NCBI GenBank assembly: GCA_022824225.1
Contig: JAJEAH010000076.1
Coordinates: 1 to 64,000 of the forward strand
DNA length: 64,000 bases
Reading direction: 5' to 3'
DNA from: Chloroflexota bacterium
GTDB lineage: Bacteria > Chloroflexota > UBA11872 > VXOZ01
Part shown: positions 9,390-49,134 of the stretch, piece by piece
How positions within the stretch are numbered: the first letter of the stretch is position 1
How the letters are laid out: the number at the start of each line of letters is the position of its first letter
The notes under the pieces: model-generated
The model's input: the letters and a program-made list of their open reading frames with translations, nothing else
Told to the model about the DNA's origin: nothing
Database searches by the model: none
Made by a program: the position numbers and the translations under genes

Positions 9390-10148
9390 ATGCCCTCCGC
9401 AATCGAATGGACTGATGAAACGTGGAACCCGGTAACGGGCTGTACGCGGGTTTCGCCTGGGTGTGACAACTGCTACATGTATGCTATGTATCCTCGCCTT
9501 AAGGGCATGGGCGTAAGTGGCTACGAAACTACTCCTAGTGATGTTCAGTTGCTACCTGAGCGACTGAATTTGCCTTTGACTTGGAAGAAACCGAGACGTG
9601 TCTTTGTAAACAGCATGTCTGACCTCTTTCATCCTCGTGTCCCGTATGAGTTTGTCTATGAGGTTTTTGAGGTGATGCAGCGTTCGGCCGCGAAGCACGG
9701 TCACGTATTCCAGGTGCTGACCAAGAGACCGGGCAGGGCCGTAGGTTGGTGGATGAAATATGCAGGGCATTTTCCCCATGGCTGGCCCTCCAATATTTGG
9801 ATTGGCACGTCCGTAGAGAACCAGAAGTACGCTCCGCGCCTCACCGTCTTAGGGCGGCTGCCTGCTCACGTTCGCTTTGTATCTGCCGAACCTTTGTTGG
9901 AACAGGTCGAACTAACGCCCTGGCTGAAAGACGGAACGCTTCAGTGGGTAATCGCCGGTGGCGAAAGTGGCTTCGGCGCTAGGCCTATGGACTTGGACTG
10001 GGTGCGAAGCCTGCGGGACCAAACCGTGCACTACGAAGTTGCATTCTTCCTTAAGCAGCTTGGAGGCGTACGCAATAAGCGGGGTGGAGACGCTGCGGTA
10101 ATTGATGGTCGCCAGTGGCGGCAAATGCCCGTAGCTGGTCAGGAATAG
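9390..10148 (+). CDS. Three-Cys-motif protein, phage Gp37/Gp68-like (DUF5131)
   Basis: 252-aa cytoplasmic protein of the Gp37/Gp68 group, found in phages, plasmids and accessory regions; biochemical role not established. The defining cysteine cluster CTRVSPGCDNCY (CX6CX2C) is at about residues 18-29, preceded by the family start IEWTDETWNPVTG. Further conserved segments are VNSMSDLFH, FQVLTKRPGRA, WIGTSVENQ, RFVSAEPLL and VIAGGESG. The cysteines invite comparison with radical-SAM-like iron-sulfur proteins, but the CX3CX2C pattern is absent. It is followed eight bases later by its known partner type, TcmP. The two genes look less GC-rich than guaB, which suggests horizontal acquisition. Confidence 0.9.
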   Translation: MPSAIEWTDETWNPVTGCTRVSPGCDNCYMYAMYPRLKGMGVSGYETTPSDVQLLPERLNLPLTWKKPRRVFVNSMSDLFHPRVPYEFVYEVFEVMQRSAAKHGHVFQVLTKRPGRAVGWWMKYAGHFPHGWPSNIWIGTSVENQKYAPRLTVLGRLPAHVRFVSAEPLLEQVELTPWLKDGTLQWVIAGGESGFGARPMDLDWVRSLRDQTVHYEVAFFLKQLGGVRNKRGGDAAVIDGRQWRQMPVAGQE

Positions 10149-10156
10149 CAGAGACT

Positions 10157-11005
10157 ATGGCAGCTTCTTTTGGCGGTGAATGGACTCATCAGAAACTTGA
10201 AATCCTCAATCGGTACTTGGATGCTTACACTACTGCCTTGAAGGACCGGCCCTTCCACTTGATCTACTTTGACGCCTTTGCAGGAGGTGTATCGAATCCA
10301 GTCGACTCGGCCTATGCGTCGGAGGACTACGGTGAGCTTCGGGAACTGCGTGCCGGCTCACCGCTCATTGCCTTGAAGGTTAAAGACAAACCTTTTGACA
10401 AGCTTGTATTTGTTGAAAAGGATGCCACTCGCTGCGCATCGCTGTGGTTGCTTCGTGAGAGCTACCCAGATCGAGACATCGAAATCCGTAACGAAGATGC
10501 GAACAGCGCATTGCCTGGCTTCTGTGAGACTCTTGGCAGCAATGACCGCGCCGTCGTTTTCCTTGATCCCTTCGCTACGCAAGTATCTTGGAGCACAGTC
10601 GAGATCCTTGCTCGAACCCAGAAGATCGATTGTTGGATACTCTTCCCGTTGATGGCAATTTCGCGCATGATGCCAACAGGTAGAGAGCCGCCACATGCAT
10701 TGGCAGCACACCTAGACAGGGTTTTTGGCGGACGCGAGTACTGGGAAAGCTTGTACAACGATTCTCCACAGCAGTTGTCTCTGTTGTCACCTGAACCGTC
10801 ACAACAGAGGCCTCGCGGCAGCGACCAGATTGCGGTTCGCTACCGTGAACGACTTGAAACAGTTTTCGCAAGAGTAGCGCCCACCTCTCGAACCTTCAGG
10901 AATTCAAGGAACTCTCCTCTGTTTGAGCTGTTATTCGCTGCCAGTAATCCGGCAGGCGCTAGGGTGGCGGTGCGCATAGCTGACTACATTCTGACGAACT
11001 GGTGA
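10157..11005 (+). CDS. tcmP: Three-Cys-motif partner protein TcmP
   Basis: 282 aa, of the family that co-occurs with Gp37/Gp68-type three-Cys proteins; function unknown. Characteristic segments are the start GGEWTHQKLEILNRYLDAYTT, the FHLIYFDAFAGG segment, LVFVEKD, VVFLDPFATQVSW and the C-terminal FELLFAASNPAGARVA. IYFDAFAG followed by an FVEKD and a FLDPF motif is reminiscent of Rossmann-like methyltransferases or nucleases (inference only). The ATG chosen starts just before the family homology; the frame extends 14 codons upstream into the previous gene. Expression is probably coupled to that gene. Confidence 0.88.
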   Translation: MAASFGGEWTHQKLEILNRYLDAYTTALKDRPFHLIYFDAFAGGVSNPVDSAYASEDYGELRELRAGSPLIALKVKDKPFDKLVFVEKDATRCASLWLLRESYPDRDIEIRNEDANSALPGFCETLGSNDRAVVFLDPFATQVSWSTVEILARTQKIDCWILFPLMAISRMMPTGREPPHALAAHLDRVFGGREYWESLYNDSPQQLSLLSPEPSQQRPRGSDQIAVRYRERLETVFARVAPTSRTFRNSRNSPLFELLFAASNPAGARVAVRIADYILTNW

Positions 11006-17884: not shown

Positions 17885-19099
17885 GTGTACGGCAGAAGGT
17901 ACATCCAGACGATTCGGTTGGACAACATCCTGTCCTACGGCCCAAATACAAAGGCGTTCCATTTGGAGCCGTTGAACGTCCTTATCGGCCGAAACGCGTC
18001 CGGAAAATCAAACTTCCTCGAAACGCTATCTATTCTCTCCAATGCGCCTAAGGACATTCAAGCACCGTTCCGTGAAGGCGGAGGAATATACGAATGGTTT
18101 TGGAAAGGCCCTGCCAGAAACCCATTTGCGACTATCGAGGTAACGATAGAGAACCAGCTAAAGCTGTCGCCTCCAGTACCGCTTAGATATCGATTGACAT
18201 TTGGCCATCTCTCTGGACAGTTCACGGTTAACGATGAAGTAGTTGAAGATGAGCATTACAGCACCAGCGGCTGTCAGCCGAAACCCCATTATTCTCGCAC
18301 GCATGGTGAGTCTGTCTTCAACCAGAGACTTAGTGAGTCTCCTGACCCCTATACTTTAGTTGACCCAAACATTAAGGCAGATCAGTCTATTCTGTCCCAG
18401 CGAATTGAGCCACGGCTCTATCCGGAACTAGGCTACCTAGGAGAGGTTTTTCGCCACATCCGCTTTTTTGACGAAATACATCCGGGCCCACAGTCTCCAT
18501 TGCGAATTCCGCAGCAAACGGACCTTCCTACAGAATACTTGCTGCAGGATGGCTCAAACCTCTTTTTGGTTTTGAAGACACTGCTAAACCAACCAGACCA
18601 AAAGGAATGGATCTTTAGAAACTTGCAGGAGTTTTTTCCTGAGTTTCAGGATATTCGAACTGAAAGTGTGGGCCAAAGAGAGCAAGTGTTCTTTCAGGAA
18701 CAAGGGTTGAGCGCCAACATATCCACCGCTCGACTATCGGACGGGACTCTGCGCTTCCTGTGCCTTCTTGCAGTACTATGCAGTACTAGGCGTAGTCCTA
18801 CACCGCCGCTGCTATTCTGCATTGAAGAGCCGGAAATGGGTTTACACCCAGACGTGATCCCGAAATTGGCAAAGCTACTAGTCGAAGCCTCAGAACGAAG
18901 CCAAATCTTTGTTACAACGCACTCCGACATTCTCGTGGACGCGCTTTCGGATACACCGGAGGCCGTGGTAATTTGCGAAAAGGTCGATGGGGCGACGCAA
19001 CTCCGCCGTCTCAATGCCGACGATCTCAAAGTCTGGCTAGACAAATACCGTCTTGGCGAACTCTGGTCGAGCGGCCATCTCGGAGGGAACCTCTATTGA
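17885..19099 (+). CDS. OLD/RecF-like AAA family ATPase
   Basis: 404-aa SMC/ABC-type ATPase of the kind found in OLD-like nuclease and anti-phage systems. Walker A is GRNASGKS (residues 35-42), the ABC signature lies in RLSDGTLRFL, Walker B with catalytic acids is CIEEPEMGLHPD (314-323) and the H-loop histidine is His346 in TTHSDIL. The middle is a helical insertion with no recognisable motif. No TOPRIM nuclease domain is fused at the C-terminus; the next gene may supply that role. A GTG start is chosen because AAGGAG lies seven bases upstream. The gene is A+T-richer than its surroundings, consistent with transfer. It overlaps the DUF4276 gene by four bases. Confidence 0.88.
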   Translation: MYGRRYIQTIRLDNILSYGPNTKAFHLEPLNVLIGRNASGKSNFLETLSILSNAPKDIQAPFREGGGIYEWFWKGPARNPFATIEVTIENQLKLSPPVPLRYRLTFGHLSGQFTVNDEVVEDEHYSTSGCQPKPHYSRTHGESVFNQRLSESPDPYTLVDPNIKADQSILSQRIEPRLYPELGYLGEVFRHIRFFDEIHPGPQSPLRIPQQTDLPTEYLLQDGSNLFLVLKTLLNQPDQKEWIFRNLQEFFPEFQDIRTESVGQREQVFFQEQGLSANISTARLSDGTLRFLCLLAVLCSTRRSPTPPLLFCIEEPEMGLHPDVIPKLAKLLVEASERSQIFVTTHSDILVDALSDTPEAVVICEKVDGATQLRRLNADDLKVWLDKYRLGELWSSGHLGGNLY

Positions 19100-19707
19100 G
19101 TGTTCTCGTATTTGTGGAAGGCGGAGGCGACCGCAGTGCGCTAAAGAGAGCGTGCCGCGCGGGCTTTAGCGAGTTTCTGAGGAAAGCGGGTTTTGTGGGC
19201 ACTATGCCTCGTATTGTCGCGTGTGGTAGTCGCCAGGATGCGTTGGATGACTTCAAGACTGCACTCAGTAGAGGTGAGCACACCGTTCTGCTGCTGGTTG
19301 ACGCGGAAGGACCGGTAAGGGCGCCGGTTTCTCGTGCCAGCCCGTGGCAGCACCTCAAGGATAGTGACGGGTGGATTCGACCTAATCAAGCGTCAGATGA
19401 TCAATGTCATTTGATGGTGCAAGCGATGGAGTCGTGGTTCCTTGCCGATAGAACCACACTCAGGACTTATTTTGGCAAGGGATTTCAAGACGGAGCGCTG
19501 CCACAGAATCCGAACATCGAGGGAGTGCCCATAAGAGATGTCGAAAGTAGACTGAGGCAGGCAACCCGCGAGACGCGCAAAGGCGATTATTCAAGAGCAA
19601 AGCACAGCTTCGAGATTCTGGCAGCTATAGATCCGGCAAGAGTCAGAGAGCAACTGCCGTACGCCGACCGTTTCCTCTCTGCTCTGGAGCAAGTGTGCCG
19701 AAAGTGA
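19096..19707 (+). CDS. DUF4276 protein, TOPRIM-like partner of the ATPase
   Basis: 203 aa. DUF4276 features are VFVEGGGDRSALK at the N-terminus, a LLLVDAEGPV strand end, the highly typical MESWFLADRTTL segment, and a lysine/arginine-rich C-terminus (KGDYSRAKHSFEIL). The early VEGG glutamate and later DAE resemble the acidic positions of TOPRIM nucleases, so a nuclease or nucleotide-cleaving role is inferred, not shown. The start is a TTG that overlaps the ATPase stop as TTGA, with CGGAGGGA eight bases upstream, so expression is tightly coupled. ATPase plus DUF4276 pairs recur in accessory DNA, which makes an anti-phage role likely. Confidence 0.85.
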   Translation: MSVLVFVEGGGDRSALKRACRAGFSEFLRKAGFVGTMPRIVACGSRQDALDDFKTALSRGEHTVLLLVDAEGPVRAPVSRASPWQHLKDSDGWIRPNQASDDQCHLMVQAMESWFLADRTTLRTYFGKGFQDGALPQNPNIEGVPIRDVESRLRQATRETRKGDYSRAKHSFEILAAIDPARVREQLPYADRFLSALEQVCRK

Positions 19708-19847
19708 AGGCAGTTATACTCGACAAGGACACTTTCGCGAACCTCAATTGGCTGGCAGAGCACCGCATCTTTGGAATGACCTATGCTAGTCTGCTAGCGA
19801 CCTACGCTAGTCCGCTAGCGGCGCGGCGGTGTCGGCGTCGGCGGTGA
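19704..19847 (+). pseudogene. Possible truncated hydroxyacid-dehydrogenase start
   Basis: A short frame of 47 codons begins with a GTG that overlaps the previous stop as GTGA. Its opening VKAVILDKDTFANLNWLAEH resembles the N-terminus of D-isomer-specific 2-hydroxyacid dehydrogenases, but the frame ends in an arginine-rich tail antisense to the NagB-like gene. It may be a remnant cut off when neighbouring DNA was rearranged. The end contains a 21-bp tandem duplication (19779-19820). Confidence 0.3.
19779..19820. repeat. 21-bp tandem duplication
   Basis: ACCTATGCTAGTCTGCTAGC and ACCTACGCTAGTCCGCTAGC are adjacent copies differing at two places. The second copy supplies the stop codon and last residues of the NagB-like gene on the minus strand. 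Confidence 0.85.
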
Positions 19848-36457: not shown

Positions 36458-36709
36458 ATGACCCCAGAGAGCCAACAAGAAAGTATCGCCCGCTTTCAGC
36501 AGGACGTTGATTACTATGAGTCTTGCTACGAGGAGCTTCTCCAACAGTATCCTGAACAGTGGGTAGCAATACTAAACCAGACCGTCGTGGGGAGCGACAC
36601 GGATCTTGATCGGCTGCTCAGCCGGCTCAATTCAGAAGGAATACCTATAGAGAAAGCCCTGATTGAGCACGTAACCGCCGAGGAAGAGGTCCTCATTCTC
36701 CCTGCATGA
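36458..36709 (+). CDS. Small conserved protein (DUF5678-like) paired with an aspartic protease-like gene
   Basis: 83-aa acidic cytoplasmic protein. The sequence YYESCYEELLQQYPEQWVAI near residues 19-38 resembles DUF5678-type small proteins, which are of unknown function. The C-terminus (IEKALIEHVTAEEEVLILPA) also recurs in such proteins. CTAGGAGGT lies eight bases before the ATG. The stop overlaps the start of the retropepsin-like gene as ATGA. The constant pairing suggests that the two products act together. Confidence 0.75.
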   Translation: MTPESQQESIARFQQDVDYYESCYEELLQQYPEQWVAILNQTVVGSDTDLDRLLSRLNSEGIPIEKALIEHVTAEEEVLILPA

Positions 36710-37164
36710 TACGTGGCTACTTCTTTGCCCGGGGCGGGATAAGCCGCCCGTATGTGACAGCCCGCTTCCAGTTTCCTTCGCTTGAGAACCGGACGCTAGA
36801 GACACGTCTGCTGGTCGATACCGGCGCTGACCGCACCCTTCTTGCTCCTCGGGATTGTAAGCGGCTGATAAGACGATTTGGGCTTGACTTTAGCACTTTG
36901 GCCACGTCAAAGCCGGGGGCAGGCATCGGCGGAAGAGTCAAGATGCGCACGCTAGAGGCTATCATGACCATCCTGCCCTACTCGACACCGCTGACTCTGA
37001 CCCTGTTGGAGCCAGAACCGGGAAACATATCACCGCTCCCTTCCTTGCTGGGGCGCGACATACTCTCCCACTTTGCCCTTTTCATGGAAGAACGAACCGG
37101 GCAACTTCTCTTGCTCGAACCACACGAGGTAAGCCAGGTTGACTCAATTGTCCGTGCCTCCTGA
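36706..37164 (+). CDS. Retropepsin-like aspartic protease domain protein
   Basis: 152 aa. The active-site signature LLVDTGADRTLLAPRD (residues about 35-50) is that of single-domain retropepsin-like proteases, which act as dimers, and LLGRDIL near residue 110 is the second hydrophobic-glycine element. No signal peptide or membrane segment. It has no ribosome site of its own and is coupled to the upstream small gene. Substrate unknown; a role in processing its partner or in stress control is inference. The pair is A+T-richer than the flanking genes. Confidence 0.85.
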   Translation: MIRGYFFARGGISRPYVTARFQFPSLENRTLETRLLVDTGADRTLLAPRDCKRLIRRFGLDFSTLATSKPGAGIGGRVKMRTLEAIMTILPYSTPLTLTLLEPEPGNISPLPSLLGRDILSHFALFMEERTGQLLLLEPHEVSQVDSIVRAS

Positions 37165-37313
37165 TGACCGCAACCTCGTAACCTAGGGTCACGCTGCAGT
37201 GCCTTGAATTTGCGCTTTCTGATTTCACATAGAAAGTGAACGTGGTATTCCTATGCCCCTACTGCCAGCTACCCGCAAGGGCTAGGGTAAGAATGTGTGC
37301 CACCATAGGCAAT

Positions 37314-38225
37314 TTAGGTGATGTCTCCCGTTTCTCGTGGAGGCCACGGATTGGGAAGCCCCAATACCTCATTTAGCGTACACATCGGTTCAATCTCGTT
37401 GAATCCTCCCAATTCCAGTATCCATTCCTTAGCGAATGGGAACATTCCTCGCTTCATTGGGAACTTTGCCCGGGGATTGTGAACAAACTCCCAGGGTAAT
37501 TGGGGTCGGCATAAATCCCAGACACTGCCTTCAGCATCAAAAGACTTAAAGAGAACTCCTGAAACGTGGACGTTTTTAGGCTCCGTCGACGTACCAAAGA
37601 AACTCTTAGGGTCTCCAATGGTATTTCTCCCGAACAAGGCGTGAATAATCGCATGCTCATGCGAGAACCACCTGTGTCCTCCAACGACCAGGACAAGTGG
37701 GGAATTGACGTTTCGATATTTCCAAGACTTCTTCTTGGTAGCGTTGCTGAGTTGGAAGTCGACTCCTAGAACCCCGACTCTTATCGACACGCCTGGCTCA
37801 CGAGTACCTGTTCTGCTGGCATTCTCGCTCTGCGCCCTGTCAAAGTCTCGGTCAGATTCCTGGACAACTGTGCATTCCACGATAACTGTAGCGTCCTGGC
37901 ATGTCGCTGCATAGTCTGGTGTCTTGCCATGGACATTCGGATCTGCTTCTACTTTAAACCCAATAGCGCAAAGGGTTTCGTGAGTGACAAGCTCCAAGAG
38001 TGCCCCAGTATGTAGACGATCATCGTTGCGAAACATACCTCGAAGGCTATTCTTCTTGCATTGCGGAATCCTAGCAAACCAGGGATCAAGCGTTTTTCGG
38101 ACGCAATCCACTTTCGCCCATGCTGAACGATTAAGAAAATGGAAATGCGATTCGCCCTTGCTTGGGTAACCCGTATAGGTGCGCGTTTCACAATCAAAGA
38201 GACAATCCTTAGCGAGTTTTGTCAC
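37314..38225 (-). CDS. Unknown protein with a possible PD-(D/E)XK-like nuclease core
   Basis: 303 aa, no confident family. Residues about 75-125 contain HTGALLELVTHETLCAIGF, then KTPDYAAT and, after 8 residues, VIVECTVV. This is the helix-PD-x-ECx arrangement of PD-(D/E)XK nucleases, except that the lysine position is threonine. A further WFSHEHAIIHALFG and a conserved-looking C-terminus follow. The gene is clearly lower in GC than its neighbours, begins with GTG and has only a weak AGAG ribosome site. It could be an orphan restriction-type nuclease acquired horizontally; this is inference. Confidence 0.6.
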   Translation of the reverse strand: MTKLAKDCLFDCETRTYTGYPSKGESHFHFLNRSAWAKVDCVRKTLDPWFARIPQCKKNSLRGMFRNDDRLHTGALLELVTHETLCAIGFKVEADPNVHGKTPDYAATCQDATVIVECTVVQESDRDFDRAQSENASRTGTREPGVSIRVGVLGVDFQLSNATKKKSWKYRNVNSPLVLVVGGHRWFSHEHAIIHALFGRNTIGDPKSFFGTSTEPKNVHVSGVLFKSFDAEGSVWDLCRPQLPWEFVHNPRAKFPMKRGMFPFAKEWILELGGFNEIEPMCTLNEVLGLPNPWPPRETGDIT

Positions 38226-38398
38226 TATATTCTCTTTCTATCCACTGTCAATGCGCCCACACGCCACACCGTGCCCGACACACTTTGGCGTGTTGGCGCA
38301 GATCAAGTGCACACGGTATGGGAAAGTGACGGAGCACAGCAGCCTGAGACACAACTAATGCAGGTAGCCACGGTTGCTGTGATGCTCCGCGACCATCC

Positions 38399-39751
38399 TC
38401 ACTCTACTACGCCGCCTAGGCATTGATACTGATAGCTCTCACTGAGCAACACCCACTCTCGCAAATTATCATTGAACCACGCCCACATGACGTTATTCAT
38501 TGAACGCTCCACGCTGTTGGGGCTTCGTTTGCCGTAGCGGCCGTAGCGGTCATACCACCAGGAAGCCTGCAGCCGGAATGCGTCCACCTCCTCTTGGAGG
38601 CACTCCGCGGCTGTGGCTTGTGGTCGCCCTCCTCTAAAACGGTGTGACTCAACGTGATATGTCTCATGGATGAGCACGGCGGCGAGCACTTGTCCGCTGT
38701 ACCCTCTCAAGGACTCGCTGATGGTGATGCGATTGCGCGAGGGAGAGTAAGCGCCCCATCCGTTGATGCGCCCAAACACCACCTCGGTCCCTGCATCAAC
38801 GACCACGTCCACCGCCGCCTGGCCGAGTTCGGATTGGCCCTGCATCGCCGTCACATAGGCTCGCGCAAGGTCAGGATCGATATATGGCCCCAGTTCAACA
38901 TCGTTACATTCATCCCTCCAATAGGAGTCCATCCAAACATGTTTTATGTTTCCAACATTAAGCCAAGCTGCAGCATTGTTCGCCGATTGCTCCAATAGAG
39001 TAGGATTCCGTTTGCCGTCCGCGCCAAACACCTCTAGCCAATATTGGGCGGCGAAACCCTCTCTGACGCCTTCTCTAAGCATGCACTCTTCCCAGGATTG
39101 CGCAGGGCCATCTTCAACCTCGAGCATCAGCGCAATCGTCGGCCAAATTAGCGCAAAGGCGAGCGCCTCATTGCTCTCATATCGATGCGCTTCACTGATG
39201 GTGATGCGGCGCGGAGAAGTTTCGTATTGGGACTGGTAATCTCCTATGTGACCAAACACTGCGCTCATGCCCAATTGCACAAACTTATCCGCGATTTTAT
39301 TCCCGGTCGGCGTATTGCGCATGACGTGATATGCGTGCGCAAGGGTTGGGTCCACAGTCGGGCGCAGCGCGGCGGTGGGGGCGGGTGGTGGAGCCGGACC
39401 AGGCGTCGGCGGCGGGGTGTGGATGTGGTCGGCCTCCCATGGAAAACGCTCGGTATTGAGGCGCTGCACGAGTCCGTTAGGGCCGTTTATCCACGTGCGG
39501 TAGCCGTCGGTAAAGGCTGTCCAATTATCGGCCTTGCGCCAGGCCATGAGGCCGCCGGTGGTGCGTTGATTGCTATCGCCTATGGCGTTGTAGTACTCGT
39601 TCTCCAGACACTCGCCCACGATGCCGTGGCCAATGAGATCGCGGAGTGTCTTGAATCCCAGGCGAAACTCACAGTTTGCGGCATGCAAGGATCCACCGCA
39701 AAGAGCTGTCAAAGCAATGGCCAGCGCAATTCCCGCAATCAGCCGCCTCAT
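38399..39751 (-). CDS. Secreted protein with duplicated metalloprotease-like domain, one copy inactive
   Basis: 450 aa. A signal peptide covers residues 1-25. Residues 27-106 form a Cys/Trp-rich module (TTGGLMAWRKADNWTAFTDG), followed by a Pro/Ala linker. Two homologous repeats follow, about 133-273 and 290-433. Shared landmarks are RITISE, a Cys-containing acidic helix, GKRxPxxxExSxNN and the final hydrophobic helix. Repeat 2 has the zinc motif HETYH (362-366) and acidic AECLQEEVDAF behind it; repeat 1 has WPTIA at the same place, so its zinc site is lost. The ATG follows GGAGAGGGTGG. It is probably an extracellular protease or hydrolase with a regulatory pseudo-domain. Confidence 0.78.
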   Translation of the reverse strand: MRRLIAGIALAIALTALCGGSLHAANCEFRLGFKTLRDLIGHGIVGECLENEYYNAIGDSNQRTTGGLMAWRKADNWTAFTDGYRTWINGPNGLVQRLNTERFPWEADHIHTPPPTPGPAPPPAPTAALRPTVDPTLAHAYHVMRNTPTGNKIADKFVQLGMSAVFGHIGDYQSQYETSPRRITISEAHRYESNEALAFALIWPTIALMLEVEDGPAQSWEECMLREGVREGFAAQYWLEVFGADGKRNPTLLEQSANNAAAWLNVGNIKHVWMDSYWRDECNDVELGPYIDPDLARAYVTAMQGQSELGQAAVDVVVDAGTEVVFGRINGWGAYSPSRNRITISESLRGYSGQVLAAVLIHETYHVESHRFRGGRPQATAAECLQEEVDAFRLQASWWYDRYGRYGKRSPNSVERSMNNVMWAWFNDNLREWVLLSESYQYQCLGGVVE

Positions 39752-40086
39752 CTTTCCACCCTCTCCTCGACCCAAGACTTGCGAACCCTTGCCAACTTTG
39801 TAGATAGCTACAGACTATTAAATGTTCAGTGTGCATCGTATATTAGCACACCTACTATCGATACTAATTCAAGCTGCACAATGGTTCGCGCCGGGCCTAT
39901 CGGTGAATCGTCCGACCACAATATGTTCTCTCTTGGACTGCAAGGACACCTTGGCCGGTGAGCGCAAAGTGGGCGCAGACAGTTTGCAGCCAGTTAGACG
40001 ATCCGATTGCGGCGCAATCACTATGCTCCACATGATAGAATTGAGCCATGAGCACAGATGGATAATGACACTAGAGAGAGTGGCAA
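39752..40086. other. Divergent intergenic region
   Basis: Lies between the secreted protein gene and the small coiled-coil gene. A+T-richer; no gene is recognisable. TTGAGC (40041) and GATAAT (40061) are suggestive but only 14 bases apart. Confidence 0.4.
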
Positions 40087-47990: not shown

Positions 47991-48582
47991 ACGGAGGATG
48001 AATCCTTCCCGTGCCCCGCCTCAGCTCCGGGTGTGGTTAGTGACTAGCAGATGCCGTCTATCTGAAACGAACCCGCTGCTTCGCAAAGTCGCTGCTTCGC
48101 AAAGTCGTTGTTTCTCGGAAACTAAGTCGTCGTTTCGCTGAAACTGAGTCGCCGTTTCCCACAGATTCCGCTATGCCCAAATGGGGCACGAGACCTGCGG
48201 AAACGCCGTCTCCCCAAAACAGCATGTGCTAGTCACCAAATACTAACCCTGTCCCGTACGTGTAATGTGGACAAGCCGGTAGCCGGCGCTTGGCACGCAA
48301 TTGAGAAAAGTATTGGAGAAGATCACGTTTTCTTCCACTCTTCACTATAGCCGAGCGGATGATGCTAATTCAAGAAGAGGGAATTCACAAACTTGAGCAA
48401 CAGATCGCTCCAGTTTGCGAATAGATACGCCCTACCCAGTCACCGGGCGGTTTTACAGTGTAAAATCTAAAGTGTACTCTCTTCACACGGGCACACTAAA
48501 TGAAACACAGTAGTATTTGGAGGTACCACAGTGAGATTCCACGCAGTTTCCTCCCTGGGATTCGAAAGTGGAGTGAGGGGGT
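47991..48582. repeat. Intergenic region with short tandem repeats
   Basis: Between the divergent pnp and coiled-coil genes. GCTGCTTCGCAAAGTC occurs twice in tandem (48075-48106), then GTTGTTTCTCGGAAACTAAGTC and GTCGTTTCGCTGAAACTGAGTC (22 bases each) follow to 48150, each able to form a small hairpin. The second half is A+T-richer and holds the plus-strand promoter region. No gene or RNA was recognised. Confidence 0.7.
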
Positions 48583-49134
48583 ATGGCTGAATGGCTAAGC
48601 GATGGGCGCGTGATCACTGGTCTACTTAGTGCAGGGGCAATACTCTTTGTAGCCATTTGTGGTGGGCTAATTGCTCTTGGTCGCTTCATAGGCAGTACTA
48701 GCAAAGAGGTGAAGAACCTAGACAAGTCTGCCGAAAGAGACCGTTCCACTTTCAATAGGGTTGCCGAAGGAATCAAGAACGATGTTGACGTAATCAGAGA
48801 AGACATCAAGAAAATCCTCAATAGACTACCGTCAACATCTCCTCTAGTCGAAAGTGGCAGTCCTCTCCGGTTGACCGAATTTGGGAAGAAAATCTCAGCA
48901 TCGATAAGAGCTGAGGCTTGGGCCGAAGAACTAGCGCCCACACTACTGCATGAAGTCAAAGGAAAAGAGCCCTTTGAGATCGACGAGTATTGCCAGGAAT
49001 ACGTCCACGAAAAGCTCACACCGGATTGGGAAAGGCGCATTGCGCGTAGTGCTTACGAGTTTGGCACTGATCAAAATGGCATCAAGAAAGCGATGGCAGT
49101 CGTCCTCCGAGAAAAGCTGCTTTCGTACCGATAG
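48583..49134 (+). CDS. Membrane-anchored coiled-coil protein of unknown function
   Basis: 183 aa. Residues about 10-36 form a membrane helix (ITGLLSAGAILFVAICGGLIALG), followed by a charged coiled coil (TSKEVKNLDKSAERDRSTF and VDVIREDIKKILNRL). The C-terminal part, about 100-183, has a compact globular look (LTEFGKKISASIRAEAWAEEL, then DEYCQEYVHEKL and GIKKAMAVVLREKLL). I know this pattern only from unnamed proteins in accessory DNA. GAGGGGGT stands immediately before the ATG. The gene is markedly A+T-richer than its neighbours and is followed by its own terminator, so recent acquisition is likely. Confidence 0.75.
   Translation: MAEWLSDGRVITGLLSAGAILFVAICGGLIALGRFIGSTSKEVKNLDKSAERDRSTFNRVAEGIKNDVDVIREDIKKILNRLPSTSPLVESGSPLRLTEFGKKISASIRAEAWAEELAPTLLHEVKGKEPFEIDEYCQEYVHEKLTPDWERRIARSAYEFGTDQNGIKKAMAVVLREKLLSYR

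Follow-up and report, generated by a model that had tools for sequence, protein, structure and literature searches.

Two overlapping genes lie on the + strand at 17885–19707 of the window, the whole 64,000-nucleotide stretch of Chloroflexota DNA that we analysed; all features of the pair given below are on this strand. The upstream gene (17885..19099, GTG start) encodes HEC-01A, an OLD/AriA-like ABC ATPase of 404 aa (Pfam AAA_21, E 6.4e-32). The downstream gene (19096..19707) encodes HEC-01B, a DUF4276 protein of 203 aa (PF14103, E 3.4e-25) with a predicted OLD-type Toprim fold. As the preliminary description of this DNA had stated, the genes overlap by four bases, the DUF4276 gene begins with TTG (at 19096) and the ATPase carries no TOPRIM domain: its chain ends just after an invariant W..G..GG tail. 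The shared bases TTGA (19096..19099) hold both the ATPase stop and the DUF4276 start. NTGA is found likewise in most relatives, whose loci usually show an overlap of 4 or 7 bases, and we read the arrangement as predicted translational coupling. The GTG start of the ATPase gene is homologous in position to the ATG of same-genus alleles. In all 26 loci with this DUF4276 subfamily, two of which are broken, the ATPase gene lies directly upstream on the same strand; thus, the juxtaposition is not due to chance. Promoter and terminator scans gave nothing above chance. A short ORF past the DUF4276 stop (19704–19844) was considered as the remnant of another gene and rejected, as it has no relative elsewhere in the genome.

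The ATPase motifs are intact and strongly conserved across 17 relatives. Walker A (GRNASGKSN, residues 35–43, 17987..18013) contains the invariant residues G35, N37, G40, K41, S42 and N43, and Walker B (CIEEPE, 312–317, 18818..18835) the invariant E315, P316 and E317. The ABC signature S-D-G (285–287, 18737..18745), the H-loop T-H-S (345–347, 18917..18925) and the residues of the C-terminal tail W394..G397..G400-G401 (19064..19096) are invariant as well. The best PDB match of the AF2 model (pLDDT 86.7) was full-length TsOLD (6p74, E 1.6e-12), followed by SMC heads and PtuA, which bears out the earlier reading of the chain as an OLD-like ATPase. The middle of the protein (about residues 63–265, 18071..18679) is a beta-rich insertion with strands at 81–159 in the model. 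Here (alignment columns 62–265) the mean identity between same-genus alleles was 52% (43–66%) versus 82% in the C-terminal ATPase lobe. We propose that this variable middle is a recognition region and that the C-terminal tail is a docking tail for the DUF4276 protein. In mosaic alleles (see below), the tail groups with DUF4276 and not with the ATPase core.

The DUF4276 chain was modeled by AF2 with high confidence (pLDDT 95.1, pTM 0.91) and the model was compared to the PDB with Foldseek. Among the matches listed, the six best were all OLD proteins (structures 6njw, 6nk8, 6njv, 6njx and 6p74 among them), five as C-terminal (Toprim) regions and one as a full-length protein. These matches were modest but consistent: E values were 3.9e-3 to 0.14, and TM scores 0.38–0.52 (by query length) in five cases and 0.44 in the remaining one. 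GajA and retron Eco8 stood lower among the listed matches. At the profile-profile level, DUF4276 showed no similarity to single OLD, RloB and AriB-like sequences; this weak test was superseded by the fold search. Thus, structural prediction, which the preliminary description had suggested as a check, returned a Toprim-type fold with OLD nucleases as best PDB matches.

The motifs of the chain agree with this fold. Residues invariant across the 17 relatives include E8, G9, L67, D69, M111, E112, W114 and Y165. The predicted Toprim glutamate E8 (19117..19119) lies just after strand 1 (3–7), the glycine G44 (19225..19227, at least 90% conserved) follows strand 2 (39–42), and D69-A-E71 (19300..19308), a D-x-[DE] motif in which position 71 is E or D, is found at the end of strand 3. 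In the sequence and the model, this arrangement matches the published Toprim pattern of a glutamate, a glycine and DxD (PMC6755086). The TOPRIM-like character that had been claimed for DUF4276 is therefore borne out by these motifs and by the OLD matches of the model. Further along, in M111-E112-S-W114 (19426..19437), E112 starts a helix (112–117) and is a candidate that may be equivalent to E508, the metal-B ligand in the Bp OLD active site (PMC6755086). By motif spacing, D12 would be placed where Bp OLD has E404. This position (E+4, an OLD metal-B ligand) is not conserved and varies among relatives between D, E, N, S and V. The window protein has R at the position of the nearly invariant K167, possibly the counterpart of Bp OLD K562. 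The active site may therefore be tuned or partly degenerate.

We compared both chains to the PADLOC models. The ATPase matched HEC-01A (PDLC04177) with 468.8 bits (E 3.5e-141) over residues 5–402 of 404, and the adjacent DUF4276 protein matched HEC-01B (PDLC04201) with 256.7 bits (E 3.2e-77) over residues 2–200 of 203. PDLC04177/PDLC04201 is the close HEC-01 subfamily, and with both proteins present, adjacent and matched over nearly their full length, we found nothing that separates the pair from HEC-01. The minimal defence candidate of the preliminary description therefore belongs to an already catalogued PADLOC candidate. HEC stands for Hma-embedded candidate, from a guilt-by-embedding approach (PMC10855318), and another such candidate, HEC-06, has been reported to be antiviral (PMC12988326). 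In the open literature searched, we found no published test of HEC-01 and no mention of DUF4276, whose function Pfam gives as unknown. Relatives occur in many bacterial phyla, in records of Acidobacteriota, Gemmatimonadota, Planctomycetota, Myxococcota, Pseudomonadota, Desulfovibrionaceae, Cyanobacteria, Dehalococcoidia and Bacteroidota. The occurrence is patchy: within the phylum of the window, the HEC-01B profile matched 12 of 301 genomes. Phage, plasmid and viral-contig records yielded no close copy. The window pair is a further member of HEC-01, and what is fresh is its chromosomal slot and its reassortment.

How does the pair relate to known systems? The closest solved folds for both modeled chains are those of OLD (class 1/class 2: TsOLD, BpOLD, GajA), with which the pair shares the ATPase and Toprim folds and the E and DxD/E motifs. 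OLD classes 1–3 carry ATPase and Toprim in one polypeptide, whereas the window has two ORFs, with the Toprim E, G and DxD on a separate DUF4276 chain and E as the second acid. A PARIS-type split has been proposed as OLD class 4 (PMC10568477). Like PARIS (AriA/AriB), the window pair consists of two chains, an OLD-type ABC ATPase and a Toprim protein, and the family is found in defence islands. The AriA model matched the ATPase (E 4.7e-31) far more weakly than did HEC-01A. However, the PARIS effector is a DUF4435 protein. Only DUF4276 stood above the Pfam cut-off in the window effector, and AriB was absent from the PADLOC matches of the pair and from the PDB matches listed. The pair is not a PARIS member, because its effector is DUF4276 and no AriB model matches; the resemblance to split OLD and PARIS-type pairs that had been claimed stands as a description of the architecture.

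Besides AriA, the PADLOC models mad3 (E 2.8e-18) and Old (E 1.7e-15) matched the ATPase. MADS has been counted as an ATPase-Toprim system (PMC12409363), but we saw no other MADS gene at the window pair, and the mad3 model also matches UvrA. Matches of mad3 at two loci of the collection, L071 and L072, were considered as MADS relatives and rejected, the protein being UvrA; mad3 (PDLC04135) matches this ordinary UvrA at E <1e-90 (L071:8966–12214, L072:7634–10819), so MADS calls that rest on mad3 alone are unsafe. Gabija differs by its UvrD-like helicase GajB, which is missing beside the window pair, where the neighbours are metabolic genes. The AbiL pair (AbiLi/AbiLii, with an RloB-like effector) likewise combines an ATPase with a small effector, has a similar 'FE.W' motif after an acidic strand and shares an island with a HEC-01 pair at one locus (L012). 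However, Pfam treats RloB and DUF4276 as distinct families, no profile likeness emerged in the weak single-sequence test, and Pfam and PADLOC gave no RloB (AbiLii-type) match in the window DUF4276 protein.

In the window, the pair is flanked by genes for a Gfo/Idh/MocA oxidoreductase, a glucosamine-6-P isomerase-like protein, a RodZ-like protein and a CDP-alcohol phosphatidyltransferase. The isolation from other defence genes described earlier thus holds for the window but not for relatives, which often lie among defence genes. Next after the pair come a type IIG enzyme at L003, an Eco57I-type methylase/restriction protein and an AbiLi/RloB pair at L012, and PglX, another HEC-01A-like ATPase and PglZ at L010. 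A type IIG enzyme (L066) and a type I methylase (L060) lie close to the pair at two other loci. Neighbourhood statistics, also suggested earlier, revealed the defence-island association in relatives and not in the window itself: at E 1e-20, proteins flanking 16 loci matched 104 PADLOC models, as against 10 for the proteins of 16 control stretches, of which 12 came from the same genomes and contigs or genus, counts that are redundant in that one methylase matches many models and that include mad3 matches to UvrA. A second set of flanks held PglX, PglZ, BrxB, BrxC, BrxF, IIG and AbiLi. Two of the islands contain a further pair. At L012 (6769–14892), two parallel ATPase/effector pairs stand side by side, and at L010 (6775–15609), where a BREX-like operon embeds HEC-01, a single run brings together two ATPase/effector-like pairs, the second being the HEC-01A-like ATPase with an unidentified 211-aa ORF.

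We compared the slot of the pair across the genus. The genes bordering the pair on both sides were present in all six available genomes, and five of these six species carried the HEC-01 pair between them; the sixth (G003) had only ∼230 bases there. Between species of the genus, the flanking proteins were 83–94% identical, the ATPases 57–75% and the DUF4276 proteins 56–67%. At fourfold degenerate sites, the difference was 0.27–0.37 in the flanks versus 0.49–0.75 in the pair; codon bias somewhat lowers the flank values, yet the gap remains large. The HEC-01 slot thus varies far more between species than the surrounding genes, as expected of a defence locus. A similar situation was seen in a second genus, in which genomes G019 (L066) and G027 (L074) have one slot in common: their nearest long flank is 92% identical and the HEC-01 pair much less, and in G019 the type IIG enzyme lies beside the pair.

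The base composition of the slot is also distinct. GC3 in the window was 0.53–0.55 for the pair versus 0.81–0.85 for the flanking genes, and across the genus 0.51–0.56 versus 0.74–0.85. The preliminary description had taken the A+T-rich composition to indicate transfer. The lower GC is real and there are signs of exchange, but low GC alone is no proof that transfer was recent, since the genus has retained the pair in a single slot at an equally low GC3. Recent insertion in the window genome was rejected: five species have the pair in this slot and, for either gene, the genus forms a single clade. The only repeats found in a search for mobile-element ends were short (16–23 nt, 74–88% alike), and none marks the ends of a unit convincingly. 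Elsewhere in the window, a DUF5131 gene (PF07505, E 4.6e-82) overlaps a TcmP three-Cys-motif partner gene (TIGR04474, 182.5 bits) at 9390–11005, in a lower-GC dip; this pair looks mobile and is possibly defence-related. Two further low-GC stretches (0.50–0.56; 36706–39775 and 48483–49134) hold ORFs with no Pfam or NCBIfam match.

Trees of the two parts of the locus revealed a conflict. In the ATPase core tree, G004 grouped with G005 and G001 with G002, whereas in the tree of the ATPase tail plus DUF4276, G002 grouped with G005. An AU test rejected the forced alternative grouping both ways (p 1.4e-7 and 1.3e-3), values that are optimistic because the groups were picked after the first trees were seen. 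Only the inner branchings conflict. The core and the tail-plus-DUF4276 part thus reassort. Residue comparison placed the junction within the last 30–50 residues of the ATPase. The upstream spacer of G005 matched that of G004 (75% of 361 bases) and its downstream spacer that of G002 (83% of 102 bases), a pattern that fits one crossover. Tentatively, and with some doubt, HEC-01 could then be a two-chain OLD of modular build: at a fixed chromosomal slot, recombination would reshuffle sensor core and effector, joining a new ATPase core with its variable recognition part to an effector module formed by the last ∼40 residues of the ATPase and the DUF4276 nuclease. Because this module includes the ATPase tail, a docking tail would travel with its own nuclease.

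Taken together, these results suggest that the pair is probably a HEC-01-type two-gene anti-phage system whose action resembles that of an OLD nuclease divided over two chains. The computed support consists of the gene pair and its coupling, motif conservation, predicted folds, the defence-island context of relatives, slot occupancy and allelic exchange. In the proposed mechanism, the ATPase would assemble as an ABC ATPase, its variable middle would sense a product of infection and its conserved C-terminal tail would hold the DUF4276 Toprim protein. Sensing and ATP turnover would release or activate the putative nuclease, which would cut RNA such as tRNA (as for AriB) or DNA (as for OLD/GajA) and stop phage growth at the expense of the cell, probably by self-damage.

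RNA and DNA are about equally likely as substrates, and two versions of the mechanism follow. The ATPase might cage a Toprim toxin and, on the appearance of a phage anti-restriction protein, free it to act as a tRNase, as in a PARIS-like toxin-antitoxin. Among two-chain ATPase/Toprim pairs, AriA/AriB is understood best, and AriB is a two-metal tRNase (PMC12409363); AriA models match the ATPase, and BREX or RM beside relatives would suit a backup that responds when those systems are inhibited. However, the effector is DUF4276 and not DUF4435, OLD but no AriB is found among the 50 PDB matches listed, and no RM or BREX adjoins the window copy; we give this version a little less than an even chance. 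Alternatively, as in OLD or Gabija, the Toprim nuclease might act on DNA, nicking or degrading that of the phage or the host under the control of the ATPase. The best fold matches of DUF4276 are C-terminal regions of DNA-cleaving class 2 OLD proteins, with GajA and retron Eco8 lower, and TsOLD is the best match of the ATPase; yet there is no helicase partner as in Gabija, and Toprim fold likeness leaves the substrate unfixed. We hold this version neither more nor less plausible than the PARIS-like one.

A role outside defence appears improbable. A housekeeping or selfish ATPase/Toprim pair, acting for example in repair or the cell cycle, would agree with the retention of the pair in a single slot throughout the genus, and a cell-cycle role is reported for the archaeal OLD-family ATPase Cran1 (PMC12796447). 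Against such a role stand the patchy occurrence, the empty slot in one sister species, the low GC3, the divergence and reassortment of alleles and the location of relatives in defence islands. That the two genes are chance neighbours or a decayed locus is hardly credible: all that speaks for it is that both genes begin with a less common codon (GTG or TTG), and it is refuted by conservation, since the ATPase and core Toprim motifs are intact and the same pair recurs in 26/26 loci, mostly with the same overlap.

With the pair read as a two-chain OLD-like system, HEC-01 becomes a further two-chain ATPase/Toprim solution next to PARIS and OLD, and DUF4276 gains a testable fold and catalytic site. 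The strongly diverged, reassorting alleles of the slot are natural chimeras that could help to tell the phage-sensing part from the one that holds the nuclease.
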